23,006 nucleotides of DNA from a virus. The notes beneath the pieces are model-generated. The model had not been told where the DNA came from. It saw only the letters and a list, made by a program, of their open reading frames with translations, and ran no database searches. The position numbers and the translations under genes are program-made. Below are positions 3,399-20,935 of this stretch, piece after piece (within the stretch, counting starts at the first letter, position 1; every line of letters begins with the position of its first letter). The stretch spans positions 1-23,006 of IMG/VR virus record IMGVR_UViG_3300008954_003257. One strand, 5' to 3'.

Positions 3399-4553
3399 TT
3401 ACATGATCAAGCCAACTAAGGCCCTATCATCCAACACCATACGTCCCTCCTCTAACGCGCCGTAATAACCAATTCTCTGCTGTCTATTAGAGAACTGATC
3501 GTCGGCGACCAAGTTAAACTCGGAACCGGTTTCAGAATCAACTGCGATAGCACGAACAAAGGCATCACGCGTACGGTCTATACCGACGATGATTTCCTCA
3601 GTAGCGCCAGCGAATGCACTTGAAGCAGTCGTGGAGCCATTGTCCAAGTAATCCGTAGTACCAGCAACCGTATCAAACACATCATTGAAACGTTTGCCAA
3701 CACCAAGCTCAAGAATCTCCATGATAGAAATACCATAGAATTCAGTCAAACCAGATTGACCGAAGATCTTCTCGCGCTCAGGATCAACCAATGTAACGGG
3801 CTGAGAAGTCGCGCCAACAGCTGCACCATTAGGAGCGAGCGTGTTGATTGGCTGGTAAGCCATTGCACGAATCTTTTCCACTACCTCCGGGGAAACCAAA
3901 AGGTCAGTTAGACCCTTACGGGCTCCTGTCGGAGTGCCGCCGTCCCATGAAGCATTGACTCTCTTGATCTTGGTGAATAACTTATTTAAGTCATCCAACA
4001 ATAAACGATCAGCCTGAGCCGTTCTGAAAACGTGACGGTTGGTAGCCTCCAAAGCGGCGGTACCAGTCTTAGCGTTTGCCAAGGCCGTCATAAGCAGATT
4101 CGAAGACGTTCTTTCCTGCTTAATCAGAACTTCTTGTGCTACACGAGTGAAGGTTTTACCGATCACATCTAGTCTTGAACGAGACGCGTATTTCTTATCG
4201 AAAGAAACGGCGCTGTCCAGATGATATGTGGCAAACTTCAGTTCGGAAGCGGTAGGTTGCACATAGTTGGTGGGAAGACCACCAGCTACGGATTGACTGT
4301 AAACACGGATGTAATCTTCATCGAAGATATTGTAGTACAAATCCAACGGAATAGAAGGATTGTCATCAGCGTTATACTGTAACGGAGTGAATAGGTTACT
4401 CACGGTAGGAGCATTATTGATAACTTCGGCCAAAACCGGACCAATAAACTCTGCCAGAGCAACTTGAGCCGCATAGGCGGTATCGCGGTTACGCGAAGCC
4501 ATAGCCTTGACTAATTCGATCTGCTCATCGGTTCTTTTTAATGTAATTTTCAT
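3399..4553 (-). CDS. Major capsid protein (HK97-fold type)
   Basis: A 384-residue protein placed after the protease-scaffold and a small capsid-associated gene, the usual slot of the coat protein. The N-terminal helical region (QIELVKAMASRNRDTAYAAQ) is followed by PTVSNLFTPLQYNADDNPSI, and the middle has KKYASRSRLDVIGKTFTRVA and a long helix ending LIKQERTSSNLLMTALANA. The C-terminal third holds IVGIDRTRDAFVRAIAVDSE and a tail ending DDRALVGLIM. Size and layout fit coat proteins of phages with HK97-type capsids; the lineage within that fold is uncertain. Upstream is AAAGGAA 14 nt before the ATG, one of very few Shine-Dalgarno-like sites here, which fits a highly translated gene. A strong terminator follows at once. 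Confidence 0.82.
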   Translation of the reverse strand: MKITLKRTDEQIELVKAMASRNRDTAYAAQVALAEFIGPVLAEVINNAPTVSNLFTPLQYNADDNPSIPLDLYYNIFDEDYIRVYSQSVAGGLPTNYVQPTASELKFATYHLDSAVSFDKKYASRSRLDVIGKTFTRVAQEVLIKQERTSSNLLMTALANAKTGTAALEATNRHVFRTAQADRLLLDDLNKLFTKIKRVNASWDGGTPTGARKGLTDLLVSPEVVEKIRAMAYQPINTLAPNGAAVGATSQPVTLVDPEREKIFGQSGLTEFYGISIMEILELGVGKRFNDVFDTVAGTTDYLDNGSTTASSAFAGATEEIIVGIDRTRDAFVRAIAVDSETGSEFNLVADDQFSNRQQRIGYYGALEEGRMVLDDRALVGLIM

Positions 4554-4585: not shown

Positions 4586-5251
4586 TTATGCAACATCCCA
4601 TGAAGCAGAGACGTCCAGCTGAACCAATGCATACTGTGCCGTACCTGTACCAGCGAACTCATCAGATTTACCCATCTGAGAAGTTCTATTACCGGTACCG
4701 ATAATATGGCCCACTAGCGTTTCCGCTGTACCCTGAGCCAGACTTTCACGTGTGACACCAGTTAACTTGCCAGCGTTTGCAGAAACAGCGGCGATGTTAC
4801 CCGGAACGAAGTTGGTGTCTTTTTCGTAAGCATTTTCATCGAAGGTGAACAAGCCTTTCGTAGCGACCGGGCAAGCCTGACCACTGAGAACAGCCTGAAG
4901 TTCATCTTTTTTGACTGGGTTATAAAGGAGTTTTTCTCCGTTCTCGTCATTCTGAAGCGTTTGATTCAGAGTAACGCCTAAGACGGCAGAACCGGTTGTA
5001 GCAGCTACAACTCGTAAAGGCACGACAGGATACTTATCTGCACCCAAGAAGGGGTAGTCAGTTTTTCCGAGATAGGTACTTCCGATCAAATCGAAAGTAT
5101 CTTTCTGCATATTGCCGCTCAATACCTTTACAAGCACACCTGCACTACCGTTACCGTTGGTTGTGGGATTATCATCAACCACCTGATTGGCGTACATGTT
5201 GATAACATCATGATCGCTATATTGCCTAAATGGATATAATCTTAGTGCCAT
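4586..5251 (-). CDS. Putative capsid decoration/head protein
   Basis: A 221-residue protein between the protease-scaffold (21 nt upstream) and the coat gene (32 nt downstream). It begins MALRLYPFRQYSDHDVINMY and continues as a beta-rich, Gly/Thr/Val-rich chain (SAGVLVKVLSG, VVPLRVVAATTGSAVLGVTL, ETLVGHIIGTGNRT), ending in QLDVSASWDVA. There is no signal peptide, helix bundle or catalytic motif. A small beta-rich gene just before the coat gene is commonly a head decoration or stabilisation protein, so that is the working call; it rests on position and fold style only. The leader is AT-rich without a Shine-Dalgarno site or a clear motif copy, so it may be co-transcribed with the upstream genes. 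Confidence 0.55.
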   Translation of the reverse strand: MALRLYPFRQYSDHDVINMYANQVVDDNPTTNGNGSAGVLVKVLSGNMQKDTFDLIGSTYLGKTDYPFLGADKYPVVPLRVVAATTGSAVLGVTLNQTLQNDENGEKLLYNPVKKDELQAVLSGQACPVATKGLFTFDENAYEKDTNFVPGNIAAVSANAGKLTGVTRESLAQGTAETLVGHIIGTGNRTSQMGKSDEFAGTGTAQYALVQLDVSASWDVA

Positions 5252-5272
5252 AATAGTTTAGTAATTATAAGG

Positions 5273-6853
5273 TTAATAGGTTATGGAAATATTTTGCGAG
5301 CTGAAGGCCTTCTTGAATTTATCTTCAAGAGATTCCTCAGCAGAAGATGCCTCGTTATTGTTCGCCATAGTAGAATGAGGAACCTCAACGTTTTCCACTA
5401 CATCTTCAACGGTTTCGCCAGTTTCTTCCGTAACTGATGAGGTAGCATTAGCGGTAGTTTCCTGCGCTAAACGCTGCTCAACAGCCTCTTGTATCCGCGC
5501 CTCGAACTGCATTTCCTGTTCCGCTTTAAAAGCTTTGCTCTTATGTTGTAACAAGGATGCCAGTCGTGACTGGTAATCCTCAAAAGCAGCCTCGGCACTA
5601 TCAAGAGCTTTAACCTCAGCCGCCAACACACTACGGTCTTGGTCTGTAAGTTCATAAAGCTCATCAATAGATTCCATTCTGCTATTGAATAACTCTTCTG
5701 CCGCAGCAGTGTTGATAGAGGTCTCTAGAGAATTAATCTTCTCATCAGCGGCCTCTAACTTATTCTGAAGCTCTTCGATAGAAGATTTGGCTTCCTCAGC
5801 ATCTTTTTGAGCCTGAATTTTATCAGTCTCAATAGCTTTCTTTTCGGCCTGCCACTGCTCGTCCTTCTCACGAATCTTATCGATCACATGAGAAGCGACA
5901 TTAGCGACGGCTTCCTGAGAGAACTCAGCTTTGTCAGACAACTTCGAATCGAGGATCTTCTCGAACTCTGTTTTGAATTCTGTGATATCCATAGTCTTAG
6001 TAGTTTTTACATTATTTATTTCACTTTGTGAAATTTTTAAAATATTTTTTTCCATTTCCCCTTCAAATTTTTGGGGGGCTGTTCCGTCCCTTGTGTCGTT
6101 GACGGTTAAATCTATGTTTTTTTCTATTACAAGCCCACTTACGTCTGCGGCAGGATTAGTAGTAAACCCAATACCTAGCGGAAAAACTTCCCCCACCACT
6201 AAACGATAAACAGGCGTTCCATCATCCAAAGCGCCTGACCCCTCAAAGGTCTTTAGGTGCTTTTTCATTTCTTCAATTTGAACCGGATTGGTTATAATTT
6301 CAGCGTCTTTTAGGTCTTGAGACCCCACTGCAATCACATAATCATTAAACCCAAGCTCCCAACTAGCAGAAATTTTCTTAAAATAAGGATCGTCTTCGTC
6401 ACTAGATCTTAAGAGCACCTCCGCAAAATCCTTATTGACCGTTTTATATATGACAGAAGCTAAAGAAATGTAATAAGGGTCTTTGGTGGCCAATGCGGCA
6501 CCATTACCTATAATCTTGTCATTATTGAGGTCAGTGAAGCCTGCGTTAACAATATGCCCCACCACCTTCTGTTTCTTATGCTCTATATTGGTTGGCTTAT
6601 GAACAAAGTAATCAATAAGCTCTACAGCCGTTTCGGAATCGATGCCATCTCCATTGCGGTTAAATTTGTTAACAATGGCCGCATTGAACGCTACGCCTAT
6701 TAAATCGACGTTTCTCTCTAAATCAATGGATTTGGGAATAAGAGGCTTAAGATTCTCCAATGATGCTAAACTAATATTTAGATCGTTTTCTAAATCTGCT
6801 GTCGCGTAGATATCAAAAAGATATTCGGTTTTATACTTAAATTTATCTGACAT
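5273..6853 (-). CDS. Prohead protease fused to a scaffold domain
   Basis: A 526-residue protein. Residues 1-245 look like a prohead maturation protease of the herpesvirus-assemblin/T4 gp21 type: FNRNGDGIDSE, then NIEHKKQKVVGHI with candidate catalytic His92, and KKISASWELGF with candidate Ser162 or Ser164. After a linker, residues about 290-465 are a charged, Glu/Lys/Ala/Gln-rich coiled coil typical of internal scaffolds, followed by an acidic Ser/Thr tail and a terminal helix (EESLEDKFKKAFSSQ). One chain therefore probably supplies both the protease and the scaffold it removes. Met288 opens the scaffold half, so an internal start producing free scaffold is possible, although no Shine-Dalgarno site precedes it. 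Portal lies upstream and coat downstream, as expected. Motif copy F precedes the gene. Confidence 0.8.
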   Translation of the reverse strand: MSDKFKYKTEYLFDIYATADLENDLNISLASLENLKPLIPKSIDLERNVDLIGVAFNAAIVNKFNRNGDGIDSETAVELIDYFVHKPTNIEHKKQKVVGHIVNAGFTDLNNDKIIGNGAALATKDPYYISLASVIYKTVNKDFAEVLLRSSDEDDPYFKKISASWELGFNDYVIAVGSQDLKDAEIITNPVQIEEMKKHLKTFEGSGALDDGTPVYRLVVGEVFPLGIGFTTNPAADVSGLVIEKNIDLTVNDTRDGTAPQKFEGEMEKNILKISQSEINNVKTTKTMDITEFKTEFEKILDSKLSDKAEFSQEAVANVASHVIDKIREKDEQWQAEKKAIETDKIQAQKDAEEAKSSIEELQNKLEAADEKINSLETSINTAAAEELFNSRMESIDELYELTDQDRSVLAAEVKALDSAEAAFEDYQSRLASLLQHKSKAFKAEQEMQFEARIQEAVEQRLAQETTANATSSVTEETGETVEDVVENVEVPHSTMANNNEASSAEESLEDKFKKAFSSQNISITY

Positions 6854-6875: not shown

Positions 6876-8924
6876 TTATTTCTGTAGAGAATTTTTTCTA
6901 CTGTGATGCAAGATTGCCGCCGCGTAATCATCGAGCTCATGCTCAGCACTTATATCAACCACTTCCTTAAGAGGCTTTAAATCAATTAACTTAGCTGCAT
7001 TTTTAATACATGATTTAGCGGTCGAAAGCCAATCCTTCGGATTTTTGGCGATTACTACGGATTCACAGACTTTTTCTAGAACAGATGTCTGATGTTTATT
7101 TAACCTTTTTCTTTTGAAAACTTTTTTGGCTTCCGTTACCAAGGTAGCATATAAATTATTAGTGTCATCTACAGTCTCCTTGATGTCTTGAACCGAATAC
7201 TTAGTCTTAGCCAACGTTTTAGAGCCTACAGGTCGCCCCGGACGAGAAGGGCTTTTGCCCCTGTTGTTCTTCTTTTCCTCGTAGCGCCGCCTTTGATCTA
7301 GTAGCTTTGCGCCCTCCGGATGCCTAATCTCTTCGATTTCCTCTTCCTCTTCGAAGTCCATTGGCATAGGGGTTCCCCCCACCAACGGGTTATAATACCC
7401 CTTTTGCCTATCGTCCACAAATTTTTCTTGCGCCTTTTCCAACGTAGGAGCATCGGGAAACACACCAGTATCGATAACCTTCATCCCTTGCTCTGGAGGC
7501 AAAATACCCAACTCCATCATACGCGTAATCACTCTTTGTATTTGCGCTGGATCCTTTAGATCTATTGTTTCAAATTTAGCTGTAGGTATATCTCTGAAAC
7601 CAAAGTTTTTGCAGAGCTGCCGTATTTCCGCTTGTAAAAATTCATTTAAAAAGGTGTCCCTCGCCTCCTTCAGGCGCTGTAGGAACATTTGAGCTTTCAC
7701 CTCTGTACTTGCAAATTTTTCTTGACTTAAAATAATATTCTGCAACCCTTCCTTGATGTCCTGATTGACCACCTCGTATTTAGATGGACCAATTACCCTT
7801 TGAATATCTGGTATAATAAATTCCGCTTTAGTGGTATAATCGCTCACTAAAATACGACCAACACTTTGGTTTTGAAATAGCGCTTGCATTGCGCGAATAT
7901 TACGAGGGTTTATTCCTCCATTATCTGGAGTGGTTCCCATCGTGATGAGCAATACCACATTTTCTATGGTCCTGCAGATCGACTGGTCTATTTTTTTCAT
8001 CTCCATTTTAAAGTTAATATCATCCAAAACTGGAAATCCAAAAGGAATAGCAAAAGGCTCGTAATCCTGCTTTTTATAAAAAGCATACCTTAGTCTTTCT
8101 GGGTTAAGCTTCACCTTGATACCGTCGATAGCCCAACTATCACTTTTTACCCTTTTCTTTATATTGGCAGGAAGGGCATCATAAATTTCACGATCTTCTT
8201 CGGTTTTGGGATCCCGAAGCCTCTCCACCTCATACTCACTTAATACTTTGGCATATAAACCAAACCGATCAAACGAAGTAGCTCGCTGAGCAACAACCCC
8301 ATAAGGATTCAACAAAATATACCTAACAGGAATTTTATTGCTCATCATGTTAATGCCCAAGTTTCTTACCTTTGAAAAATCGTCTGCTTTAAATTTGCTT
8401 TGCAACGTGTATAAAAATATATTTCCGCTCCTGTAAAACTCTCTAAAAAACTGGTCTTTTAAATTCCATATTTTAATTTTCTTAAACCACGCATTAATAA
8501 ACTCTCTGGACTTTGCGCTTCCCCCTTCTAAATAAAGTTGAGAGTTGGCGAAATCCGCCATGGTGTCAACCGAGTTTCTAAAAACAGCTATGTTGGCATA
8601 AGCTTTCTGGCATAACTCTATGGCATCTCGCACATTTACTCCGTCAATAGAATACTGGTAAGGCAATAGCCCGGCCCTGATGTTGGCATATTTGTAGAGC
8701 ATAGGGGCAACCGCAATATTGTTGCGCCTAAGCTCGGTGGCTGACCCTCCCGAAGAGGTGCGCGAATAAGCTTGAGCTTCGTAATTATAAAAAGACTCCC
8801 CTATCAGTTGAGGTTCGAACCCATCTTTAGAGGTTGCCTTCATGATATTTTCGATAGGTTGGTTCTTTTTCTGAATCTTTTCCCAATAATCAGAGCGTTT
8901 GGTATATTTTCTTTTGGCTGCCAT
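6876..8924 (-). CDS. Portal protein with long basic C-terminal extension
   Basis: A 682-residue protein directly downstream of the large terminase, the standard portal position. The core (about 30-515) has a portal-like layout: FRNSVDTMADFANSQLYLEG, the wing region with KDQFFREFYRSGNIFLYTL, NPERLRYAFYKKQDYEPFAI, and a long stem/crown helix region KAQMFLQRLKEARDTFLNEF. It ends with the MELGILPPEQGMKVIDTG pattern familiar from portals. Beyond that comes an acidic run (FEEEEEIEEI, 524-533), a basic linker with an AT-hook-like RPGRPVGSK at 561-569, and a helical domain of about 110 residues. The N-terminus is also basic (AAKRKYTKR). Motif copy C lies upstream. The core call is firm by size and context; the role of the tail is unknown. 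Confidence 0.82.
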   Translation of the reverse strand: MAAKRKYTKRSDYWEKIQKKNQPIENIMKATSKDGFEPQLIGESFYNYEAQAYSRTSSGGSATELRRNNIAVAPMLYKYANIRAGLLPYQYSIDGVNVRDAIELCQKAYANIAVFRNSVDTMADFANSQLYLEGGSAKSREFINAWFKKIKIWNLKDQFFREFYRSGNIFLYTLQSKFKADDFSKVRNLGINMMSNKIPVRYILLNPYGVVAQRATSFDRFGLYAKVLSEYEVERLRDPKTEEDREIYDALPANIKKRVKSDSWAIDGIKVKLNPERLRYAFYKKQDYEPFAIPFGFPVLDDINFKMEMKKIDQSICRTIENVVLLITMGTTPDNGGINPRNIRAMQALFQNQSVGRILVSDYTTKAEFIIPDIQRVIGPSKYEVVNQDIKEGLQNIILSQEKFASTEVKAQMFLQRLKEARDTFLNEFLQAEIRQLCKNFGFRDIPTAKFETIDLKDPAQIQRVITRMMELGILPPEQGMKVIDTGVFPDAPTLEKAQEKFVDDRQKGYYNPLVGGTPMPMDFEEEEEIEEIRHPEGAKLLDQRRRYEEKKNNRGKSPSRPGRPVGSKTLAKTKYSVQDIKETVDDTNNLYATLVTEAKKVFKRKRLNKHQTSVLEKVCESVVIAKNPKDWLSTAKSCIKNAAKLIDLKPLKEVVDISAEHELDDYAAAILHHSRKNSLQK

Positions 8925-8944: not shown

Positions 8945-8976
8945 AAAGTCCTCAAAGTGACTTTGAAAGTTACTTT
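8945..8976. repeat. Tandem AAAGT-n-ACTTT palindromes
   Basis: AAAGTGACTTT at 8954-8964 and AAAGTTACTTT at 8966-8976 are two palindromes on a 12-bp period, preceded by a half site AAAGT at 8945-8949. They fill the gap between the terminase stop and the portal promoter-like motif. Candidate operator for the portal promoter, or a DNA-packaging recognition site; function is inferred from layout only. Confidence 0.6.
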
Positions 8977-10786
8977 ACATTATAAATAAAGGCTCGAAAG
9001 TTTCCACAACATCTTCTGCTGGCTGTGATTGTGCGTCAAGATACACCTTAGCCATCCAATTTGCTAACACTAAAGCTGAATAAGAATCCTTACGGGCTTT
9101 ATCTGGCCCACTTTGCCTACGCAAATTAGAGGGTAGATCAAAAGTTTGCGTGCCTTGCGCAGTGGTAGTAATCTGAACCAAGGCGCACTCATTCTTGGTA
9201 AGCTCTATCATGTCCGACTGATGTTCAATAAAGTCAATCATTTTAGCGCCAGCGGTTTGCTTAGACTCTTCCGAGGTGCGTAAAAATTTGAGGTCGGTGA
9301 TAGGAATGCTTTGGCGCTTTTGCTTGGAGTAAGAATCGTCAATTGCACGACTTGCAAAATACAGTCTTCGGTGATCAAAGTTTGCTTGCAGGAGCTCGTT
9401 GGCTTGTCGAATCCAATTGCTCGTTGGTTTTCGTAGCACAATGTGTTGATAGTTTTCTTTGTTGTATTGTCTTTTATAAGACCTTATGTCTTTTTGATAT
9501 TCCTCAGGTTTATCAAGCCCCACCTCTATGGTTTGCAATTTAATTTTTTTCTGCTTGAAGGTTTCGCTTTCGTTGCAAGCCTGCATAAACTGAACACCAC
9601 CGTTGTAGTCTCCGCATAGGGCCACAATATTAAAATTTTCTAAGCAAAATAAAAAATATTTGATATGATGCTTTAGCGACGTTCCAGACAAAGCATAACT
9701 ATGAACCAACGTAACGCTCTGGTTCTCTTTGTTTAATTTTAAAATTTGAATCGCAAAATCATCAGAACTTTCTGTTTGAGACCATGATGGGTCAAAAGCT
9801 AAAATGTACTCGCCGTCAGGATCCCCTTTGACTTCTACGCAAGGAAGATCGCCATCCGGCACGGTACACAAAGCCATTTTGCTGGTTTTGAAATAACCCG
9901 AACTATCATCTGTAAAGGTAGCCCCAAACTCCCGCTCAAACTGAGACTGACTCATTGTAGCCTTAGCTTGATTGATCAAGTTTTCATCATATAATAGCTG
10001 AGGGGCACAGTCATAACTATATCGCATTATACATCTAGAGGCCTTGTCTTTTTGATTCTCCAATGAGATAAGATGCTCAAACTGCGTATAAAGTTTATAC
10101 AAATATTCAAACTTATAAGATGCTGATGAAAGAGCAATAAGTTTATTGTTGGGCCAAACATGTCGATCTCCTTCAGTCATTTTATTTTCCTTTATAAGTC
10201 TTGTCTCTAACCTAAAGAGATCGTCGCGCTGAGTAGGGTTTTCAACTACAGACAAAAACGGAACAATAACTTCGTTATAAATTCTTTCAGGCATCAAAGC
10301 AAACTCATCAATAATTATTCGATGAAACCGAAACCCACGAAGTTTCTCTCCGTCACCCAACGGCAAAGCCCGGATGCGACTAGCCCCAATTTCCATCAAC
10401 CACTCATCATTGCTCTTTGACGTCTTTGTTATACACTGTCTAAAAAACGCAGCTTCAGGCTTGTTTGCCATATCCTCGATTTTCTTAAAAATCATCTTTG
10501 CCTGCCTAAACGATTTGGACAATATTCCTATCTCTACCCCTTGATTTAATATCGCATCTAAGGCAGCAAAAACTCCAGTTGTAAAAGATTTCGACATGCC
10601 TCGAGCCCACACGCCTAAAAAATAATCCGTTTCAAACATAGACTTAATAGCCATATGTTGGAACGGAAATAACTTCACCCCTAAAATTAAATCAGTAGTA
10701 AAAGTAATATTATTTCTGAGAAATTCATAAAGGGCAATCTTAGCTTCCTTTTCTTCCAGAAAGCCTTCGATCTTCATCATCTCCAT
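8975..10786 (-). CDS. terL: Terminase large subunit (packaging ATPase-nuclease)
   Basis: A 603-residue protein with both terminase domains, which powers DNA translocation into the prohead and cuts the concatemer. ATPase: a deviant Walker A in VWARGMSKSFTTG (residues 59-71), Walker B RIIIDEFALM (156-165, with catalytic-type Glu161), and a coupling-motif-like LIALSSAS (216-222). RNase H-type nuclease: candidate metal-binding Asp332 (LAFDPSW), Asp393 (ALCGDYNGG) and Asp567 (KDSYSALVLANW). The portal gene follows. The first codons are ATG GAG ATG ATG, so initiation at Met3 or Met4 using the internal GGAG cannot be excluded. No late-motif copy precedes it, and the 40-nt gap has AAGGGAGAAC 30 nt upstream, so it is probably expressed from the upstream operon. 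Confidence 0.95.
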   Translation of the reverse strand: MEMMKIEGFLEEKEAKIALYEFLRNNITFTTDLILGVKLFPFQHMAIKSMFETDYFLGVWARGMSKSFTTGVFAALDAILNQGVEIGILSKSFRQAKMIFKKIEDMANKPEAAFFRQCITKTSKSNDEWLMEIGASRIRALPLGDGEKLRGFRFHRIIIDEFALMPERIYNEVIVPFLSVVENPTQRDDLFRLETRLIKENKMTEGDRHVWPNNKLIALSSASYKFEYLYKLYTQFEHLISLENQKDKASRCIMRYSYDCAPQLLYDENLINQAKATMSQSQFEREFGATFTDDSSGYFKTSKMALCTVPDGDLPCVEVKGDPDGEYILAFDPSWSQTESSDDFAIQILKLNKENQSVTLVHSYALSGTSLKHHIKYFLFCLENFNIVALCGDYNGGVQFMQACNESETFKQKKIKLQTIEVGLDKPEEYQKDIRSYKRQYNKENYQHIVLRKPTSNWIRQANELLQANFDHRRLYFASRAIDDSYSKQKRQSIPITDLKFLRTSEESKQTAGAKMIDFIEHQSDMIELTKNECALVQITTTAQGTQTFDLPSNLRRQSGPDKARKDSYSALVLANWMAKVYLDAQSQPAEDVVETFEPLFIM

Positions 10787-10826: not shown

Positions 10827-11777
10827 TTAGTCCAACTGATTTTTTTGATCTAAAAAATATTGCATATCAGTTTGCCAAATTTCTTTGCCATAAACCAAAA
10901 GGCGAGGTATAATTGCCGAGGCTCGTTCACGAGTGTCCACAAATATAAACTGACAAGATCTCGCATACTCGTGTGAAATCTCTTTGATTTGTTTTAATAC
11001 ATAATCCATATTTGTTCGACGATTAAAAATTTTATTTTCTTTAATTATCTTTGAGACACTAGATTCAATAACTACAAAAAGATAAGCATCCATTTCCTTG
11101 GCCCGTTGAATTTCCTTTTTGAATCTTTCGACATTATATTTGTTCAAAGTTCCCTGCAGGTCATTTCCCGACTTGCGATCCACAAAAGTATAATTATAAT
11201 GCTCTCCTAACGTTGTATAATCTCCAATATCCAGCTTTAATGTTTGAGTGTTGCATGAAAACTTTAACGGTTTTTGTTCGCGCGTATCTACCGCTACTAC
11301 CAAATCAGTTGGCATTGGCTTCTCAAAAAATTCCTTAGGAAGCCTTTGTCCGTAAAGTGGTTCGCATCCAATTGCTTCACACACACGATTGTAGCTTCCA
11401 AAAAGATCTTTATAAATTGAAATTGAAGGCATAAAAGAATTGACAGTCTCCAAATGAAAAGGACCATATTGCCTTTTCTTTTTAAGGTGCCTCTTTTCCA
11501 GCATAGAGAGAACGTATTCCTTCACCTCTTCATCTGGGTGTTGATTACACCATTTTAAAAGCTGCTGCTTTGTTGAAAAATCTCTTTCAAAGTATTCGTC
11601 AAATCTCTTGAAAGGAAGGGGGTCTCCTGTAAGCTTGTTGAGGCGAGGGTAATACTTGGTATAATAAGAAGCTAAATTTAAATCGTGCTGCTTTATGTGT
11701 TTGTGCAAAGAGGCTCGGCTAGAAAATTCTTTTTTACATTCAGCGCAAGGGAAAATTCTGGTGCATATTCTTTCCAT
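10827..11777 (-). CDS. C2H2 zinc finger - ERCC4-type nuclease
   Basis: A 316-residue protein. The N-terminus holds a classical C2H2 finger, FPCAECKKEFSSRASLHKHI, with Cys11, Cys14, His27 and His31 in C-x2-C-x12-H-x3-H spacing. The C-terminal half is an ERCC4 (XPF/Mus81-type) nuclease: VVAVDTREQKP (Asp164, Glu167), LDIGDYT (Asp186), then FVDRKSGNDLQGTL, which corresponds to the family's ERK-x3-D motif with Asp in place of Glu, followed by RFKKEIQRAKEMDAYLFVVIE. Enzymes of this family cut branched or flapped DNA. Its start shares one base with the preceding stop (TAATG) and it sits just before the terminase, so a role in resolving branches in replicating DNA before or during packaging is plausible but inferred. 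Confidence 0.85.
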   Translation of the reverse strand: MERICTRIFPCAECKKEFSSRASLHKHIKQHDLNLASYYTKYYPRLNKLTGDPLPFKRFDEYFERDFSTKQQLLKWCNQHPDEEVKEYVLSMLEKRHLKKKRQYGPFHLETVNSFMPSISIYKDLFGSYNRVCEAIGCEPLYGQRLPKEFFEKPMPTDLVVAVDTREQKPLKFSCNTQTLKLDIGDYTTLGEHYNYTFVDRKSGNDLQGTLNKYNVERFKKEIQRAKEMDAYLFVVIESSVSKIIKENKIFNRRTNMDYVLKQIKEISHEYARSCQFIFVDTRERASAIIPRLLVYGKEIWQTDMQYFLDQKNQLD

Positions 11778-12847
11778 TATATTGCATCTTCTTTACTAAT
11801 GCCCAACACTCGAGCTTTCCACTCTGGCATTTTTTCCATTCTGTCCGCCTCTCGTTGAACGGCTTTTTTTTGCATCTCTGCCATTTTGATCATTAGTTTT
11901 CTTTCCTCTTCATCTTGAAAAAGTTGAACTAACGAAATTATAGAAGCGTTTCGTTGTTGTTGGTTCGCCACCCTCTTCGCTCTTTCACCATTTAATTTAG
12001 CAAGCATCTTGTCCACACGGTTGACACATTGGTTATATTCTTCGGCTTTAGTTTTAAGCATTTCAGTAAGCCTCATCGTCAAGTCGTGTTGACCCTCCGT
12101 GTCGTCAAACATTAAATTTAATTTTTGTTTTTGCTGCTCAATTTCCTTGAGGTTAACATAGTCCATGCATACATTTACATATAAATTCAATTCATCAGAA
12201 GTTAAGTCTGGCTTGTCCCATGTGCTTCGAATATATTCCGACTCAAAAAGATCTCTACTTTGCTTAGTTATATAAGAGCTTATAACCTGAACAAACCGTG
12301 GAGCATTTAAATAGGTAATTAATTTTTCTATACACTTACGGTCCTGTAAATTCATTTTTTGCACTTCTAACTGCTTCGAAGCCACTTTGTTTAATCTCTT
12401 GATCGCAGTAGATAAAATCTGAGGGGGGGTATATTTTTCGCCCGCCGCATCGTCTCTTAAGTTTACGGTTGCAGGAAACTCTTTGGTGATATAATCGCAC
12501 AAGGAAATAAATTTGTCACTTTCAGTAAACCCTTTATTTTCCCCCTCCTTAGGCCACAGCAATTGCCCTATTTCTTTCTTTGTCATTTCGGCACAATAGT
12601 GCTGCTTTACAAAAGACTTCTCCTCGTCGCCTAAAAAATATTTAGCCGCTCTTTTTTTTACCTTTGTCCGATAGCTCAAACCTTTTTCAACCCAGAATTT
12701 TCGTAATGCGCGCCCTCGAATAGTACTTCCTTTTTCGTTGGTGTCCTTGAAAAGCTTTTTTGTGGTTTCATTTAAATCCCCGTTGAGCTCCTCAAAAAGT
12801 TTCAGACTCGTGTCTTTTTCTTCTTTGGTTAAAACATACTCTTTCAT
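11777..12847 (-). CDS. Coiled-coil protein, possible small terminase
   Basis: A 356-residue protein not assigned to a family. The N-terminal third is basic and helical, with a helix-turn-helix-like segment (about 24-58, DLNETTKKLFKDTNEKGSTI then RGRALRKFWVEKGL) and a second helical unit around KQHYCAEMTKKEIGQLLWP. The C-terminal third (about 230-345) is a long Gln/Lys/Glu-rich coiled coil. A DNA-binding head plus an oligomerising coiled coil, encoded upstream of the large terminase, would suit a small terminase subunit, but the nuclease gene intervenes and the protein is long for that family. It is tightly packed: ATGA overlap with the sigma-like gene and TAATG overlap with the nuclease gene, implying translational coupling. 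No Shine-Dalgarno site is evident. Confidence 0.5.
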   Translation of the reverse strand: MKEYVLTKEEKDTSLKLFEELNGDLNETTKKLFKDTNEKGSTIRGRALRKFWVEKGLSYRTKVKKRAAKYFLGDEEKSFVKQHYCAEMTKKEIGQLLWPKEGENKGFTESDKFISLCDYITKEFPATVNLRDDAAGEKYTPPQILSTAIKRLNKVASKQLEVQKMNLQDRKCIEKLITYLNAPRFVQVISSYITKQSRDLFESEYIRSTWDKPDLTSDELNLYVNVCMDYVNLKEIEQQKQKLNLMFDDTEGQHDLTMRLTEMLKTKAEEYNQCVNRVDKMLAKLNGERAKRVANQQQRNASIISLVQLFQDEEERKLMIKMAEMQKKAVQREADRMEKMPEWKARVLGISKEDAI

Positions 12848-13563
12848 GTGAAAAATATATCCGTTTCATTACAAATCTTTTTAGCAATTTTTTTGTAGAA
12901 ATTTTTCAAGTTTTTAATTTGCTTGTAACCCGCCTTTCTCCCCTTCTCGTTACTCTTGTAACCCAACACCCTTGCGACCGTTTCCTCGTCCACGTGATCT
13001 ACAAATAACATTTTATAAATAATATAATGACGATCATTTAAATACTGGCGCATTCGCAAATGCATAGAAACTACGGCATCACTAATATTATAGTGATCTT
13101 CCGGAACAGTAAACCGATCAAACTCATTAGTTTCCAAAGAAACCGGTATTTTAATATCATAGGCTTGTTTTCTGGTTTTTTCCCATTTAGCGTAAAGGTC
13201 ACACTCGCTGGATTGCAAACCACTCTGGGTTAAGGAGCACAGATTAGATATTTGAGACGCCCCCTGTTCTTTAGATTGATTATATTTACAGCTTATACAT
13301 GGGCGCGCAAAATTAGAATAGTTATTGCGTAAAATATTTTTAAGCTGATTGGAAATAATTTTGTTTACCCATGGTTCAATAGGACGAATCTGGTCCCACT
13401 GTTCCCACTTTTTATATATATGGGCACGGATAATCTGCGAGACATCGTCAAAATCTAGCCATGCAATTGCGTGAAGGTGCCACTTATAGTAGCGCTTCCT
13501 TATTTCATTATCAATAGCATCCGACTTATCCTCGTAAGTATGTTTTTTATTCTCCTCCACCAC
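12844..13563 (-). CDS. Phage sigma factor-like protein with Cys insert
   Basis: A 239-residue protein built like a two-domain alternative sigma factor. Residues about 25-83 match region 2: HAIAWLDFDDVSQIIRAHIY, then EPWVNKIISNQLKNILRNNY, the polymerase-binding and -10-reading domain. Residues about 160-230 match region 4, ending in a helix-turn-helix (DEETVARVLGYK, then AGYKQIKNLKNFYKKI). Between them is an unusual insert with Cys89, Cys92, Cys109 and Cys121, a possible zinc site. It most likely redirects host RNA polymerase to late phage promoters, like T4 gp55. The start is GTG at 13563 or the adjacent GTG at 13560, as no ATG lies in the usable region; it overlaps the previous gene by 17 nt and the next by 4 nt. 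Confidence 0.72.
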   Translation of the reverse strand: MVEENKKHTYEDKSDAIDNEIRKRYYKWHLHAIAWLDFDDVSQIIRAHIYKKWEQWDQIRPIEPWVNKIISNQLKNILRNNYSNFARPCISCKYNQSKEQGASQISNLCSLTQSGLQSSECDLYAKWEKTRKQAYDIKIPVSLETNEFDRFTVPEDHYNISDAVVSMHLRMRQYLNDRHYIIYKMLFVDHVDEETVARVLGYKSNEKGRKAGYKQIKNLKNFYKKIAKKICNETDIFFT

Positions 13564-13964: not shown

Positions 13965-14687
13965 TTAAGTTACGGGGTTATTTTCTAGTTTATTTACAAT
14001 AAATTTCAAAATTTCACTCCTAAGGATATCCTCCTTAGTGAACTTAAAAGTATACACCCCTTTTTTCCTAGATGCCTCATCATCAAACAAATTCATGATA
14101 GAAATAAAGCCTGTTTTTCCGTTAATGTCTGGCTGCATTGGGTCTCCGCATATAAAATACTTAGAGTTTTCGCCAATTCTGGTAATCAGGGTAACCAATT
14201 CCTTCTTGGTAAAATTTTGAGATTCGTCGGCAATAATGAGCTTATTTGCCCAACTCGCGCCGCGTAAAAAATTAATTGGCGCACATTGGATTATTTTTTC
14301 ATCTACCAGCATTTTTATTTGACTTGGCTCTAGTAATTCAGCTAACTTGTCTTGCATTGGCATCATAAAAGGATTAAACTTTTCGTGCACATCTCCGGGC
14401 AGACTCCCTAAGTTCCTATCAGCGCTTTCTGCAATAGTGCGAACATAAAACAAGTCTTGATGCATGTTCATGTTAAACAATTGCAAAGCCGCATAAATAG
14501 AAATAAAAGTTTTAGAGGATCCCGCGGGACCAGAAACAAAAACTATTTTTGTGTTTTTGTCGAATGCTATTTTTAAAAACTGGTGTTGTTTTTTTGTTAA
14601 TTCAAAATTATTAAGATAAAGCTTGTATTTGTTTTCAATGGGTATTATCTTTTCCGACGCCGTGGACTTCTTCCGTCTACTCATCAT
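13965..14687 (-). CDS. phoH: PhoH-like ATPase
   Basis: A 240-residue P-loop protein covering the whole PhoH domain. Walker A is VFVSGPAGSSKTF (about residues 49-61), Walker B LIIADESQNF, with sensor-type FICGDPMQPD and the family segment LPGDVHEKFNPFMMPMQDKL. PhoH proteins are helicase-like ATPases very common in marine phages; their role in infection is unsettled and probably concerns RNA. It is the first gene of the minus-strand block, with motif copy D immediately before ATG ATG (the second Met is an equally possible start). The basic N-terminus (MMSRRKKSTASEK) precedes the domain. Confidence 0.93.
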   Translation of the reverse strand: MMSRRKKSTASEKIIPIENKYKLYLNNFELTKKQHQFLKIAFDKNTKIVFVSGPAGSSKTFISIYAALQLFNMNMHQDLFYVRTIAESADRNLGSLPGDVHEKFNPFMMPMQDKLAELLEPSQIKMLVDEKIIQCAPINFLRGASWANKLIIADESQNFTKKELVTLITRIGENSKYFICGDPMQPDINGKTGFISIMNLFDDEASRKKGVYTFKFTKEDILRSEILKFIVNKLENNPVT

Positions 14688-14736: not shown

Positions 14737-15837
14737 ATGGTTTTTCACGTATTAGCGGTCCCTGTTTACCCTACGCAAAGAGAAATAACAATTTGTCCTT
14801 TCACGCAAAAGGTTTACAAATTTTGCAAAGCAATGACGGAGCGGGGTCACACCGTTTTTCATTATGGTCATCCGGCTTCGGAAGCGCAATGTACCCAACA
14901 CTTTGATGTTGTTTCTGTGGAGACTTATAATGAAGTTTACAAAAAAAAAAGCTGGAGGGATTTTCATTCTCAACACATTAACAACAAGGTTCACCAAGAG
15001 TTCAATAAAAACGCAACCACGTTAATAAAAAAAAACAAACAATCTGAGCATGATTTTGTACTAGCATTTTGGGGGATCGGTCATGCCGCGGCTTGTGAAG
15101 ATCTTGATGGTTTTTATGTGGTGGAACCCAGCATTGGATATGACTCGGCCTTTGCACCTTTTAAAGTTTTTGAATCTTATGCGCAGTGGCACAAGATTCT
15201 TTATAAAATAAACGAAAAAGGGATGCCCAGCTTTACGGATCACGTTATCCCCCCGGGTTTCTATTTTGAAGATTTTCAGTATAGCAACCAAAAAGATGAC
15301 TACCTTCTTTTTTTAGGGAGAATGATTGACGAAAAAGGGTTGCATATTGCAGAATCCCTCTCTAAGTTATCTGGTCTCCCTATTAAATTCGTAGGCCCCC
15401 AGACTTTTAAAAATACCCTTTCAAAAGACAATCCGTTGGCAGAATATATTCATACCGTGAGCCTTAAGGAACGTCAACAATTATTGTCAAAAGCCAAAGC
15501 GCTTATCATGCCCAGCTTATATGCCGAACCCTGTGGGTGGGCTATGATTGAAGCTTTTGCTTCCGGAACCCCTGTTTTATCTACAGATTGGGGAGGGTTA
15601 GGAGAATACAACATTCATGGAAAAACAGGCTTCAGCTGCCATTCTTTAAATGAATTTTATCACGCTCTTCATATGGTGGAAACTATTGACCCAGCATACT
15701 GTCGCCAATATGCAGAAAATACTTTTAACATTGATTTGATAATGAAAATGTATGAAAACTACTTTGAACATATCATAGATTACAGCCAACATGAAAAGGG
15801 CATCATAAAAGAAAAATGCCACTTTTTAAAAAAATAA
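14737..15837 (+). CDS. Glycosyltransferase, GT4 family, GT-B fold
   Basis: A 366-residue retaining glycosyltransferase. The donor-binding half is diagnostic: DDYLLFLGRMIDEKGLHIA, KALIMPSLYAEPCGWAMIEA with the Glu-x7-Glu signature (EPCGWAMIE), and GTPVLSTDWGGLGEYN then HGKTGF. The N-terminal half has the acceptor domain starting HVLAVPVYPTQREIT and the GHTVFHYGH strand. No membrane segment, so it is a cytosolic enzyme. The acceptor cannot be read from sequence: candidates are modified phage DNA, a virion protein or host surface glycan. It is the first plus-strand gene after phoH, driven by a host-type promoter, which suggests early expression. The gene is AT-rich with A-tracts, like the neighbouring phage genes. 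The next gene starts 10 nt after the stop. Confidence 0.88.
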   Translation: MVFHVLAVPVYPTQREITICPFTQKVYKFCKAMTERGHTVFHYGHPASEAQCTQHFDVVSVETYNEVYKKKSWRDFHSQHINNKVHQEFNKNATTLIKKNKQSEHDFVLAFWGIGHAAACEDLDGFYVVEPSIGYDSAFAPFKVFESYAQWHKILYKINEKGMPSFTDHVIPPGFYFEDFQYSNQKDDYLLFLGRMIDEKGLHIAESLSKLSGLPIKFVGPQTFKNTLSKDNPLAEYIHTVSLKERQQLLSKAKALIMPSLYAEPCGWAMIEAFASGTPVLSTDWGGLGEYNIHGKTGFSCHSLNEFYHALHMVETIDPAYCRQYAENTFNIDLIMKMYENYFEHIIDYSQHEKGIIKEKCHFLKK

Positions 15838-16654: not shown

Positions 16655-16689
16655 CAAAAAAGCCCCGCGCAAGCGGGGCTTTTGTTTTT
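16655..16689. terminator. Bidirectional rho-independent terminator
   Basis: Stem AGCCCCGC (16661-16668) / GCGGGGCT (16673-16680) with a GCAA loop. The plus strand continues TTTGTTTTT; the minus strand continues T6 (plus A6 at 16655-16660, adjoining the stem). It sits between convergent genes ending at 16650 and 16688. Confidence 0.92.
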
Positions 16690-17191
16690 AGTGGGGCCTC
16701 TTACGGCGATCTCCCCATTCAGACCTTGAACGCCTACCTTTGTCTGAACCAGACCTCCGGCTTTTTTTGCGACCTTCAGCCGAAGGGTGTTTGGTGGCCG
16801 CTTTCTTTCTCCACTCTGCTGCAGCCTTACGGGCCGCAGCCTTTTCCTTATCATCAAGTTTGCCATCCTTGTTTTTATCAAACTTTTTAAGAATATCTGC
16901 ACGACGACCAGCTGTACGACTATTGGCATCTGCCGCCATTCTCTTGCGTAAGGCAGTATACCTTTCTTTAGCTTGGGCTTCTGTTAGCTTGCCCGCTTTG
17001 ACCGCTTCCTTGATTTTTTTAGCGGCAGCAACATACCTTTTTCTGGCTTCCCTTGGGTCAGCTTTCTTGGGCGCAGGTTTAGCCTTGGCTTGCGCCACCT
17101 TATTTGTTTTGTGAGGATGATCGGCTTGCGCCACGGTAACACCCCCGAGCAGCAAAGCTGCTGTAATGATTAGTTTAATATATGTTTTCAT
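16688..17191 (-). CDS. Exported, very basic protein with one EF-hand
   Basis: A 167-residue protein. The start chosen is the ATG at 17191, which gives a clear signal peptide (MKTYIKLIITAALLLGGVTV then AQA, cleavage before Asp24); a longer frame starting at 17254 would bury the signal. The mature part is dominated by Lys, Arg and Ala in helical runs, with one textbook EF-hand loop DKNKDGKLDDKE at residues 105-116, and ends in an Arg/Ser/Lys-rich tail. It should be periplasmic or secreted and bind calcium; no enzyme domain is seen. Such short exported EF-hand proteins are common in PVC bacteria, so host origin is likely. It begins 4 nt after the stop of the other exported gene, forming a two-gene operon under motif copy E. 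Confidence 0.75.
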   Translation of the reverse strand: MKTYIKLIITAALLLGGVTVAQADHPHKTNKVAQAKAKPAPKKADPREARKRYVAAAKKIKEAVKAGKLTEAQAKERYTALRKRMAADANSRTAGRRADILKKFDKNKDGKLDDKEKAAARKAAAEWRKKAATKHPSAEGRKKSRRSGSDKGRRSRSEWGDRRKRPH

Positions 17192-17195
17192 AAAA

Positions 17196-17726
17196 TTATG
17201 GTTTGGGGTCGTTTCCGTCAATAACCTCGTCGCGCTTGTTTTTAAACTCTTCACGAATCTCTTTTATGCGAGCGTGAACTTCTTTGCGATGACTTTTCAT
17301 CGATTCCACCCATTCTTTTCTAGAGGCAGCTACCTGCTCTCTAAGGACCTTTTTCTCATCGTCTGTGGCATCCTTCCACTTGTCTTTATCCAAACCGACC
17401 CAATGCTTTTTAGAGGCTTCCTTAAAAGCTTCACGTAATTCCTTGATCTTGGCGTCATCACGAACAAGCTTACCAAACGCGTTTCCCTTATGGCGCACTT
17501 TGTGGCCCTTCTTCTTGGATTCACCACGATGCTTTTTACGCTTCTCAAAAGCAGCTTTAAGGCGCTCTTTAACTTTAGCTGGATCAAATTTCTTGCCGCC
17601 GCGTTCAGGCTTTTCTTTCTTAGGTTTATCTGGCTTAGGCGCAGGCTGAGGCACCTGACCTGTAGCTGTTAATGCTGACGCCATGACAGCAACCAGCCCA
17701 ATTTTAAGTATGCGTTTAATGAACAT
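17196..17726 (-). CDS. Exported, Lys/Arg-rich helical protein
   Basis: A 176-residue protein starting at the ATG at 17726, which sits 8 nt after motif copy E and opens a signal peptide (MFIKRILKIGLVAVMASALT then ATGQ, cleavage near residue 23). A Pro/Lys linker (VPQPAPKPDKPKKEKPERGG) is followed by charged helices (FDPAKVKERLKAAFEKRKKH, then AKIKELREAFKEASKKHW, then EEKKVLREQ-like and HARIKEIREEFKNKRDE segments). It has no Cys and no catalytic motif. It resembles its downstream neighbour in design (export signal plus basic helices) without obvious sequence identity. Probably a periplasmic binding or coating protein of host origin; function unknown. Confidence 0.72.
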   Translation of the reverse strand: MFIKRILKIGLVAVMASALTATGQVPQPAPKPDKPKKEKPERGGKKFDPAKVKERLKAAFEKRKKHRGESKKKGHKVRHKGNAFGKLVRDDAKIKELREAFKEASKKHWVGLDKDKWKDATDDEKKVLREQVAASRKEWVESMKSHRKEVHARIKEIREEFKNKRDEVIDGNDPKP

Positions 17727-17729
17727 AAT

Positions 17730-17741
17730 AATATTTACACT
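17730..17741 (-). promoter_or_regulatory. Late-promoter-like motif, copy E
   Basis: Reads AGTGTAAATATT on the minus strand, GTGTAA ending 8 nt before the ATG at 17726, which settles the start of the exported protein. Divergent from copy H 116 nt away; the stretch between contains only AT-rich DNA with T-tracts. Confidence 0.65.
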
Positions 17742-17856
17742 GCAGGAATCGTGCCAGAACTTTTTTTTTGTTTTATTGGCTTTTAAGCCTCGACTCCTCG
17801 TTATGTTGAGTAATAACACCCATTATTAAATAAATTACGGGAAATATTCCCCACAA

Positions 17857-18277: not shown

Positions 18278-18709
18278 ATGGATGGACTAACCAACTTAAC
18301 TAATTTACTAAACAACACTAATTTAGTAAATCAATTGTCCAACTTAAAATCGGAAGAAGTAGAGGGCATTGCCAAAAGTTTATTTTCGGAATACGGGTGG
18401 ATTTTCGCGGCTGGCGTGATAGCTCTTTTGGCCAAAGACGTCATGATTAACCTAGTAAAAGGCATGTTGATATTTTATGGGCACGATTTTGATAACGACG
18501 ATGTTATTTATATTAGCGGTCGTCAGGCACGCATTGTACGCGTTGGCGTTACACGTACCACTTTCTACATGAGTGACCGTAAAACTAAAATGGTCGTTCC
18601 AAATGAACAGCTTAAAGAATTAACTATAGAAAAAACCCTTGGAGTGAATGGAGGGTCACCTTATTTACCTAAAGGTGGAGAGCCGGGGTTCGACCCTAAA
18701 ATAAAATAA
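18278..18709 (+). CDS. MscS-like mini-protein (pore helix + beta domain)
   Basis: A 143-residue protein. After an Asn/Leu-rich N-terminal helix there is one hydrophobic segment at about 40-66 (WIFAAGVIALLAKDVMINLV). Then comes a stretch that matches the MscS beta domain: FYGHDFDNDDVIYISGRQAR, IVRVGVTRTTFYMSDRKTKM, VVPNEQLKELTIEK, including the invariant-type Pro108-Asn109. Full MscS channels have three or more membrane segments and a C-terminal alpha-beta domain; here only the pore-proximal helix and beta domain remain, followed by a Gly/Pro-rich tail. It could form a reduced channel, modulate the host MscS, or serve as a holin-like protein. The gap to the upstream gene is 15 nt and to the next gene 1 nt. 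Confidence 0.72.
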   Translation: MDGLTNLTNLLNNTNLVNQLSNLKSEEVEGIAKSLFSEYGWIFAAGVIALLAKDVMINLVKGMLIFYGHDFDNDDVIYISGRQARIVRVGVTRTTFYMSDRKTKMVVPNEQLKELTIEKTLGVNGGSPYLPKGGEPGFDPKIK

Positions 18710-19226: not shown

Positions 19227-19808
19227 TTATGGCTTCCCCAGCGAACCAGAGTGATCGCTCTTTTCCACTAAAAAGTCCTCCATAATAAGACAATCTAAAT
19301 CGGAATTCCAAAATGTTTTCAATGCGTCTGACGGGCTGTCTACCAATGGTTCTCCCCTTAGATTGAAACTGGTGTTCATAAAAACAGGAACACCTGAAAG
19401 TTTTTCAAAATTTACTAAGGCTTGATGAATAACCGGGTTTTGCTTGTTGCTAATGGATTGCGGCCGACAGGTGCCATCCACATGCGTTACCGCAGGAATC
19501 CTCAACCTCCACTCTTCTTTAACGGGAGCGGCAATTAACATAAAGGGGGACAGATGCTTTAACTCTACAATCTCATGAAAAGATTCCTCTTTTATTACGG
19601 GAGCCAGCGGCCTCCAAAATTCACGATTTTTAATTTTATTTACTCTGTTTAAATTTTCTTTTATAGTTGGATTAGCTAAGATACTACGGTGACACAGAGC
19701 GCGCGGTCCTATTTCCGCTCTTCCTGCAAAATATCCTACCACTTTATTCTCATGGATAAGTTGAGGTAAAACCGTTTCAACTTCTATATTTTTATAGTGT
19801 AACTTCAT
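19227..19808 (-). CDS. Carbamoyltransferase, C-terminal domain (split gene)
   Basis: A 193-residue protein equal to the C-terminal (YrdC-like side) domain of NodU/CmcH/TobZ-type carbamoyltransferases. Signature segments: VVGYFAGRAEIGPRALCHRS (family form has RALGxRS, so Cys replaces Gly), ILANPTIKENLNRVNKIKNR, EFWRPLAPVIKEE, VDGTCRPQS and MNTSFNLRGEPLVDSPSDAL. In the family this domain makes carbamoyl-adenylate from carbamoyl phosphate and ATP, and the other domain passes it to a hydroxyl group. It starts inside the stop of the N-terminal gene (ATGA at 19805-19808), and no conserved segment seems lost at the junction, so the two chains can rebuild the whole enzyme. A simple sequencing or natural frameshift cannot be excluded. 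Confidence 0.85.
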   Translation of the reverse strand: MKLHYKNIEVETVLPQLIHENKVVGYFAGRAEIGPRALCHRSILANPTIKENLNRVNKIKNREFWRPLAPVIKEESFHEIVELKHLSPFMLIAAPVKEEWRLRIPAVTHVDGTCRPQSISNKQNPVIHQALVNFEKLSGVPVFMNTSFNLRGEPLVDSPSDALKTFWNSDLDCLIMEDFLVEKSDHSGSLGKP

Positions 19809-20935
19809 GGTTCAAAAGTCTTTATGTAATGTTCTATTTGAGCTTTATTAAATTTAGATCCCCAATACGCCGTAGGAAAATCTATTCTAGGGAACGACCC
19901 TCGTTCCTGATAATGAGTCACCAACGCAGCACCCAAGGCACTCCCCGTATCATGAGAAGCTGGGTGTACAAAAATATTATCAACAAAATCCTGTTCTAAT
20001 AGCTTTCCGTTAGCGGAACAATTTAATACCGAACCTCCAGTTAAAACAAAATCACGACAACCCGTTTTATTGTAAATAATTTTTGCAGTATCAATTAAAA
20101 TTTCTTCTAAATATTTTTGAGCAGTATGCGCTAAATTTACCGCAACCTCACTTAAAATCCCCTCTGACAGAATCTGCTCTCCCTTTTCTTCCTTGAGTTT
20201 TGTTAGCCACTCATCTATGGTATTACGATCTATTTGAAGTAACCCCCCTTCATTACGGAAAAACAGTTCGCGAGGAAGTAGCTTTTCGTCATATTGGCCA
20301 TAGCTGGCGAGACCCATTGTTTTACCTTCTTCGCGATGAGGCACAAAACCTAAAAAATCAGTAATTTTTTCGTAAAAGGTGCCAATAGACCCGATACAAT
20401 GAAACCAAGCGTGCTCCTCTAGCGATTTCCCATTAAAAAACCCAACGGAGCCCGCTCTTTGCCCTCCGTCGCCATCAATAGAAATATAATTACAAGAGTC
20501 AAAAGGAGCGCACGCAAGGCTGCTAAAAATATGGGTATCATGGTGATCCTGCCAGTAGATATGGCCTACCGGTAAACCGCTAAGGCAAATATCTCTCACC
20601 CAATCTGCTTCGTAGTATATTTCTAAATCAGCTCCCCGGTCAAATTCGATCCTCTCAAAACCTTTATTGACATATCGGGCAAACTCATGAGTGCTAACTA
20701 CTTTCCATATGTCTTGTACAGAAGAGTAGCCAACCCCCACCTTTACGATATCGTGTGTACTTATGCCAGCCTCATTCAAACAAAAATTTATGGCATTCTC
20801 AGGAAACAAATGGGGAGCTTGCTTTACTCTGCTAAACCGCTCTTCTTCCGCAAATGCAATTAATTTACCATCCCCCAAAAGACAGGCAGCTTGATTGTAA
20901 GAAAATTTATGGGTAATACCTAGAATGTAGCGCAT
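19805..20935 (-). CDS. Carbamoyltransferase, N-terminal domain (split gene)
   Basis: A 376-residue protein matching the N-terminal Kae1-like domain of the NodU/TobZ family: MRYILGITHKFSYNQAACLL, AEEERFSRVKQ (30-39), the His motif QDHHDTHIFSS (residues 129-139), ISIDGDGGQ, GTFYEKITDFLGFVPHREEG then KTMGLASYG, LTGGSVLNCSANGKLL and PASHDTGSALGAAL. It catalyses transfer of the carbamoyl group to a hydroxyl of the acceptor, in known cases sugars, antibiotics or Nod factors. With the 193-residue partner the total is 569 residues, normal for the one-chain enzyme. It diverges from the putative glycosyltransferase at 20991, so a glycan or modified nucleoside acceptor is likely; this is inference. Confidence 0.88.
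   Translation of the reverse strand: MRYILGITHKFSYNQAACLLGDGKLIAFAEEERFSRVKQAPHLFPENAINFCLNEAGISTHDIVKVGVGYSSVQDIWKVVSTHEFARYVNKGFERIEFDRGADLEIYYEADWVRDICLSGLPVGHIYWQDHHDTHIFSSLACAPFDSCNYISIDGDGGQRAGSVGFFNGKSLEEHAWFHCIGSIGTFYEKITDFLGFVPHREEGKTMGLASYGQYDEKLLPRELFFRNEGGLLQIDRNTIDEWLTKLKEEKGEQILSEGILSEVAVNLAHTAQKYLEEILIDTAKIIYNKTGCRDFVLTGGSVLNCSANGKLLEQDFVDNIFVHPASHDTGSALGAALVTHYQERGSFPRIDFPTAYWGSKFNKAQIEHYIKTFEP

Follow-up and report, generated by a model that had tools for sequence, protein, structure and literature searches.

Beside its gene for the large terminase subunit (TerL), the window (the whole 23,006-nucleotide stretch of viral DNA analysed here) carries a genuine gene for a protein that joins a C2H2 zinc finger to an ERCC4/XPF-type nuclease. 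The domains themselves are known; their fusion and its fixed position in a packaging block are new. The protein is best explained as having a packaging-related job, given its constant linkage to the terminase, its inheritance as a core gene and its intact, structure-specific type of nuclease fold.

Single-protein tblastn found no relative of the protein among cultured phages, even at E 10. Queries of cultured phages with the nuclease domain or with homologues returned weak matches in Acinetobacter phages, or matches to ERCC4 or the finger only, mostly in haloarchaeal viruses, and none was full-length. The open-licence literature on ERCC4/XPF, phage and terminase describes no such system.

Domains and predicted fold of the nuclease

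The open reading frame (positions 10827..11777, minus strand, ATG start) encodes 316 residues, in which Pfam and PHROG matches, an AlphaFold model compared with PDB folds, and homologues delimit a C2H2 finger, a helical middle region and an ERCC4/XPF-type nuclease. The finger spans residues 9–31 (11685..11753, minus strand) with the spacing C11-x2-C14-x12-H27-x3-H31; its Pfam zf-C2H2 match (E 4e-4) lies under the curated cut-off, and it is assigned on its finger fold, on ligand conservation and on the C-x2-C-x12-H-x3/4-H pattern, one ligand of which is missing in a minority of relatives. The nuclease domain, residues 163–291 (10905..11291, minus strand), scores above the curated cut-off for ERCC4 (PF02732; E 6.9e-7, 29.7 bits against 24), matches PHROG 3490 ‘ERCC4-type nuclease’ (E 9.7e-16) and has the XPF-type fold and catalytic motifs D164-T-R166-E167, G185-D186-Y187 and D200-R201-K202-xxx-D206. 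All 28 members of the first family alignment matched both zf-C2H2 and ERCC4, at E up to 1. Between the two domains, residues 116–139 (11361..11432, minus strand) give a weak, partial match to HNH_repeat, the homing endonuclease associated repeat (E 0.014, below the curated cut-off), seen in 20 of the 28 aligned members at E up to 1 (best 2e-4). Beyond this repeat, Pfam matched neither an HNH domain nor an Endonuclease_7 domain in the window protein.

The AlphaFold model, built on the 28-sequence alignment, has a mean pLDDT of 91.4. Its top match among solved folds was Aeropyrum pernix XPF (2bgw_B; Z 13.0, rmsd 2.4, 123 aligned residues, over residues 158–296), and the Hef nuclease domain (1j24; Foldseek E 7.8e-6, Z 12.0) and Mus81, XPF and FANCM relatives were matched too, all solved matches covering residues ~150–300. 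In BFVD the matching folds were ERCC4 proteins from haloarchaeal viruses and from large eukaryotic ones; EP364R, from large eukaryotic DNA viruses and so from a different kind of virus, is alike by fold comparison only. The N-terminal 155 residues, modelled separately (pLDDT 86.4), gave mainly zinc-finger matches (best Foldseek E 0.18), and a search with these residues alone found no clear fold match for the helical middle region. Their best VIA-align match was AFV1p06 of an archaeal virus (Z 4.3).

Archaeal XPF (2bgw), Hef (1j24), Mus81 and human XPF thus share the nuclease fold and active-site layout of the window protein, which differs from XPF, Hef and Mus81 in having the finger and helical region ahead of the nuclease, and in which no (HhH)2 or helicase was found. 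XPF enzymes usually bind branched DNA through (HhH)2 and work as dimers. No HhH family is among the Pfam matches shown for the 28 members, and the model has one helix only past residue 300; these observations come from the general Pfam search and the model. The earlier note, made from the sequence alone, was therefore right to read a C2H2 finger and an XPF-type nuclease in one protein and to pick out the DTRE, GDY and DRKxxxD motifs, but ‘eukaryote-like’ overstates the case for a finger whose fold resembles that of AFV1p06.

Terminase linkage and conservation

In the window the nuclease gene lies within a block of minus-strand genes. Downstream, 40 bp from the end of the nuclease gene, TerL begins (8975..10786; Terminase_6N 1.5e-9, phrog_2 8.6e-29), followed by a portal protein candidate (6876..8924) named from its position and kept order, without a significant Pfam or PHROG match. 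Upstream, a one-base overlap (TAATG) joins the nuclease start to a 356-residue gene (11777..12847) that lies upstream of the nuclease in relatives too; it has no informative Pfam or PHROG match and is a small terminase (TerS) candidate by position only. Next come a sigma-70 region 2-like protein (12844..13563; Sigma70_r2 E 4e-4, below cut-off), a conserved block member by its kept order, and a PhoH-like ATPase (13965..14687; PhoH 2.3e-46). A place in the packaging block had been proposed together with a one-base overlap; the place holds, but the overlap is with the TerS candidate and not with TerL. A group 1 glycosyltransferase gene on the opposite strand (14737–15837, plus strand) borders the block and is conserved in many relatives.

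IMG/VR searches recovered relatives at 40–100% identity, and each alignment query yielded over 500 of them as a lower bound. The MAGs that hold L134 and L135 point to flavobacterial hosts. In the first 61 loci of the clade to which the window belongs (clade A), the order PhoH, small gene, sigma-like gene, TerS candidate, nuclease, TerL and portal candidate was kept as far as the contigs reach, and in more distant relatives it was largely kept, with insertions around the nuclease. Across 276 clade A loci (228 distinct nuclease ORFs), which were found via the nuclease or TerL, include overlapping fetches of the same contigs and so are not independent events, TerL was next after the nuclease in 274 and no more than 150 bp away in 262. 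The remaining two contigs stop 234 and 10 bp past the nuclease, making the count 274/274 where the contig reaches TerL. Hundreds of related contigs repeat this architecture and gene order; the domain combination is not a chance one.

Starting from TerL instead, a first survey found the nuclease upstream in 73 of 80 loci. Five of the other seven begin at TerL itself or no more than about 100 bp from it, and one (L187) ends inside an inserted ORF that looks by eye like a 2OG-oxygenase. The last, L238, has an Endonuclease_NS-like ORF directly upstream of TerL, then the contig end. It was again the sole exception in a second TerL-started survey, with the nuclease upstream in 58 of 59 informative loci, and may represent slot replacement or an insertion, on a short contig. 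A gene never found near the terminase in relatives would have spoken against the proposal of the earlier note; instead, the nuclease adjoins TerL in all 274 clade A loci whose contig extends that far.

In relatives, accessory genes have entered the block on both flanks of the nuclease, among them SNase genes and, by reading, beta-helix-, sugar-epimerase- and protease-like genes. In L059, L094, L097, L104, L105, L126, L129 and L130 the TerS-position gene is followed, ahead of ERCC4, by an SNase-like gene (SNase 4.9e-9 in L097, by eye in the other seven), which adds another nuclease to the packaging slot. A subtilisin-type protease-like gene (by eye) separates nuclease and TerL in L100 (3903–4991). 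The TerL coding sequence of L058 is in two parts (3804–3983 and 5208–6839), broken at residue 61 by about 1.2 kb that matches no Rfam family and holds no plus-strand ORF of at least 40 residues; this stretch may be an intron or some kind of insertion.

Catalytic residues were conserved throughout. In all 219 aligned copies D164, R166, E167, D186, R201, K202 and D206 are unvarying and position 200 is always acidic (E in 112, D in 107), so a degraded nuclease motif, the other finding that would have counted against the proposal, did not appear; G185 is replaced by A in 16 copies. The zinc ligands vary more: C14 is D in 17 copies, all of which retain the catalytic set, and H27 and H31 are replaced in four copies each, by Y and F respectively. 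The strictest constraint falls on the nuclease and not on the finger, and the 17 copies that have lost a zinc ligand beside an intact nuclease indicate that the finger is not the essential part. At position 200, D replaces the E of the XPF-family ERK motif in the clade of the window protein. Sampled D-200 copies form one clade on the domain tree (support 100/98; 22/22 D, against 27/27 E elsewhere), which makes DRK a single conservative E-to-D change and not the especially notable one that it had been taken for.

Selection on the nuclease is close to that on TerL (median dN/dS 0.032 and 0.027, respectively, in 123 close pairs), and the protein distances of the two are correlated (Mantel r 0.906, with 0 of 999 permutations as high; 125 non-redundant pairs). 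By these comparisons decay of the gene is excluded, and the nuclease is a core gene of the packaging block, inherited vertically through a large clade of uncultured tailed phages. Gene neighbourhood of this kind demonstrates co-inheritance and probably reflects co-expression; physical partnership is not implied by it.

Nucleases in the terminase slot and their possible roles

The pairing of ERCC4 with TerL recurs in a second phage group (group B). Its Lake Lanier locus, in an alphaproteobacterial MAG (L159), has the order sigma-like gene, TerS-position gene, NDP-sugar dehydratase-like gene, 92-residue HNH, 162-residue bare ERCC4, 189-residue gene and TerL. Across group B viral contigs of up to 244 kb, ERCC4 stands before TerL in 81/81 and HNH adjoins ERCC4 in 79/81. 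Between the two groups, hhalign shows TerL to be homologous (probability 100, E 2.6e-45) and gives the TerS-position genes a weak profile link (E 0.0013, probability 19); on the tree, the ERCC4 domains of each group lie apart from those of the other. In Bacillus phage Slash, whose TerL is distantly related, an HNH_3 gene directly precedes TerL; together with group B, this indicates that the position immediately ahead of TerL is repeatedly occupied by nucleases, of differing types. Profile comparison found the group B HNH unrelated to the clade A N-terminal region (probability 0.3), and a simple joining of HNH and ERCC4 is thereby ruled out as the origin of the clade A fusion.

Branched DNA stalls packaging motors, an obstacle that known phages overcome with unrelated nucleases. 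T4 endonuclease VII (gp49) binds to the portal and releases motors that have stalled on Y-DNA during packaging (PMC9958956, PMC3485210). With this precedent favouring debranching, we give an even chance to the reading that the window protein is a structure-specific nuclease associated with packaging, which probably debranches DNA as gp49 does; the two would share a job but belong to different enzyme families, and no homology is claimed. The nuclease would be made together with TerL and act at the packaging motor; its N-terminal part, finger and helical region, may help to hold DNA, while the ERCC4 domain would nick the replicated concatemer at branches such as Y-forks, flaps and junctions and so make translocation possible. 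A bolder version, which we hold somewhat more tentatively, is that an ERCC4 nuclease forms an obligate working part of the packaging machine with TerL in two distant, widely sampled phage groups, with the C2H2/helical module docking DNA or the motor.

Debranching by this enzyme had been put forward in the earlier note as the job done by endonuclease VII in T4. The link to packaging has come out stronger than its author could know, while debranching is still what we infer and a site-specific terminase helper would fit the same facts. The comparison with endonuclease VII is weakened by a survey of other resolvases in 21 long records (12 clade A and 9 group B), which may be incomplete: four of the nine group B records carry an Endonuclease_7 above cut-off, remote from the terminase locus and separate from the terminase-linked ERCC4, so that in group B ERCC4 is not the sole debrancher candidate. 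None of the 12 clade A records had an Endonuclease_7, and none of the 21 a RuvC or RusA, above cut-off. These absences are weak evidence, since the records may be fragments and an ERCC4 family search over them missed three known carriers. A search for T7 endonuclease I-type enzymes, which had no positive control, gave no match anywhere.

The main rival, which we regard as unlikely, is a terminase accessory nuclease like HK97 gp74, an HNH protein that promotes cos cleavage (PMC9410871). Like gp74 and other HNH packaging proteins, the ERCC4 enzyme would work with terminase: the finger and middle region would read a genome site and the ERCC4 domain would nick there, aiding the initiating or terminal (cos/pac) cut by TerL. 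What keeps such a helper in play is the gp74 precedent, together with the DNA-binding additions and the neighbouring HNH genes. A C2H2 finger and a homing-endonuclease repeat, weakly matched here, are kinds of module often used in sequence recognition, and the same slot holds HNH-type genes in Slash and group B and the Endonuclease_NS-like ORF in L238. XPF-fold enzymes are, however, classically structure-specific; the C14-less copies imply that precise sequence reading by the finger is not universally needed; and in group B the ERCC4 protein has no added domain, with an HNH neighbour already beside it.

Less probable again is a nuclease for replication, recombination or host-DNA degradation that merely shares a late operon with TerL. 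Unrelated accessory genes inserted on both sides in relatives mean that proximity alone is no proof of a common job. Haloarchaeal tailed viruses also encode ERCC4 nucleases with the domain of the window protein (tblastn), and in two of these viruses the genes, unlike the window gene, are short (146 and 155 codons including the stop) and away from any annotated terminase, so that a terminase neighbour is not a general feature of ERCC4 genes in viruses. Against a merely shared operon, the insertions come and go while the nuclease–TerL pair stays unbroken, and the pairing is found in group B as well.

A free-standing homing endonuclease parked beside the terminase is very improbable: homing endonuclease genes are commonly found there and the HNH_repeat similarity would suit one, but the gene is near-universal in its clade, at one position, congruent with TerL and under strong purifying selection, where a patchy, mobile distribution would be expected.

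If the packaging reading is true, a strictly terminase-linked XPF-type nuclease would bring a new enzyme class into packaging and connect virus assembly with a family known chiefly for DNA repair. The small proteins, the confident model and the natural variants (ligand loss, ERK/DRK, and the bare domain with its HNH neighbour) offer ready-made tests.

Other genes of the window

Elsewhere in the window, a carbamoyltransferase (19227–20935, minus strand) is encoded by two ORFs, one for the N-terminal and one for the C-terminal part (Carbam_trans_N, Carbam_trans_C), which share 4 bases and are either true split genes or a frameshift. An ORF at the contig end (22768–23004, plus strand) with a prepilin-type N-terminal methylation signal (N_methyl 5.5e-9) and two Lys-rich, secreted-looking proteins (16688–17819, minus strand) look host-derived, as host DNA, acquired genes or part of a chimeric contig. 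A mechanosensitive-channel beta-domain-like protein (18278–18709, plus strand; MS_channel_2nd 9.8e-6) has a very similar counterpart near PhoH in a Flavobacteriales locus (L135, 6234–6779, minus strand).
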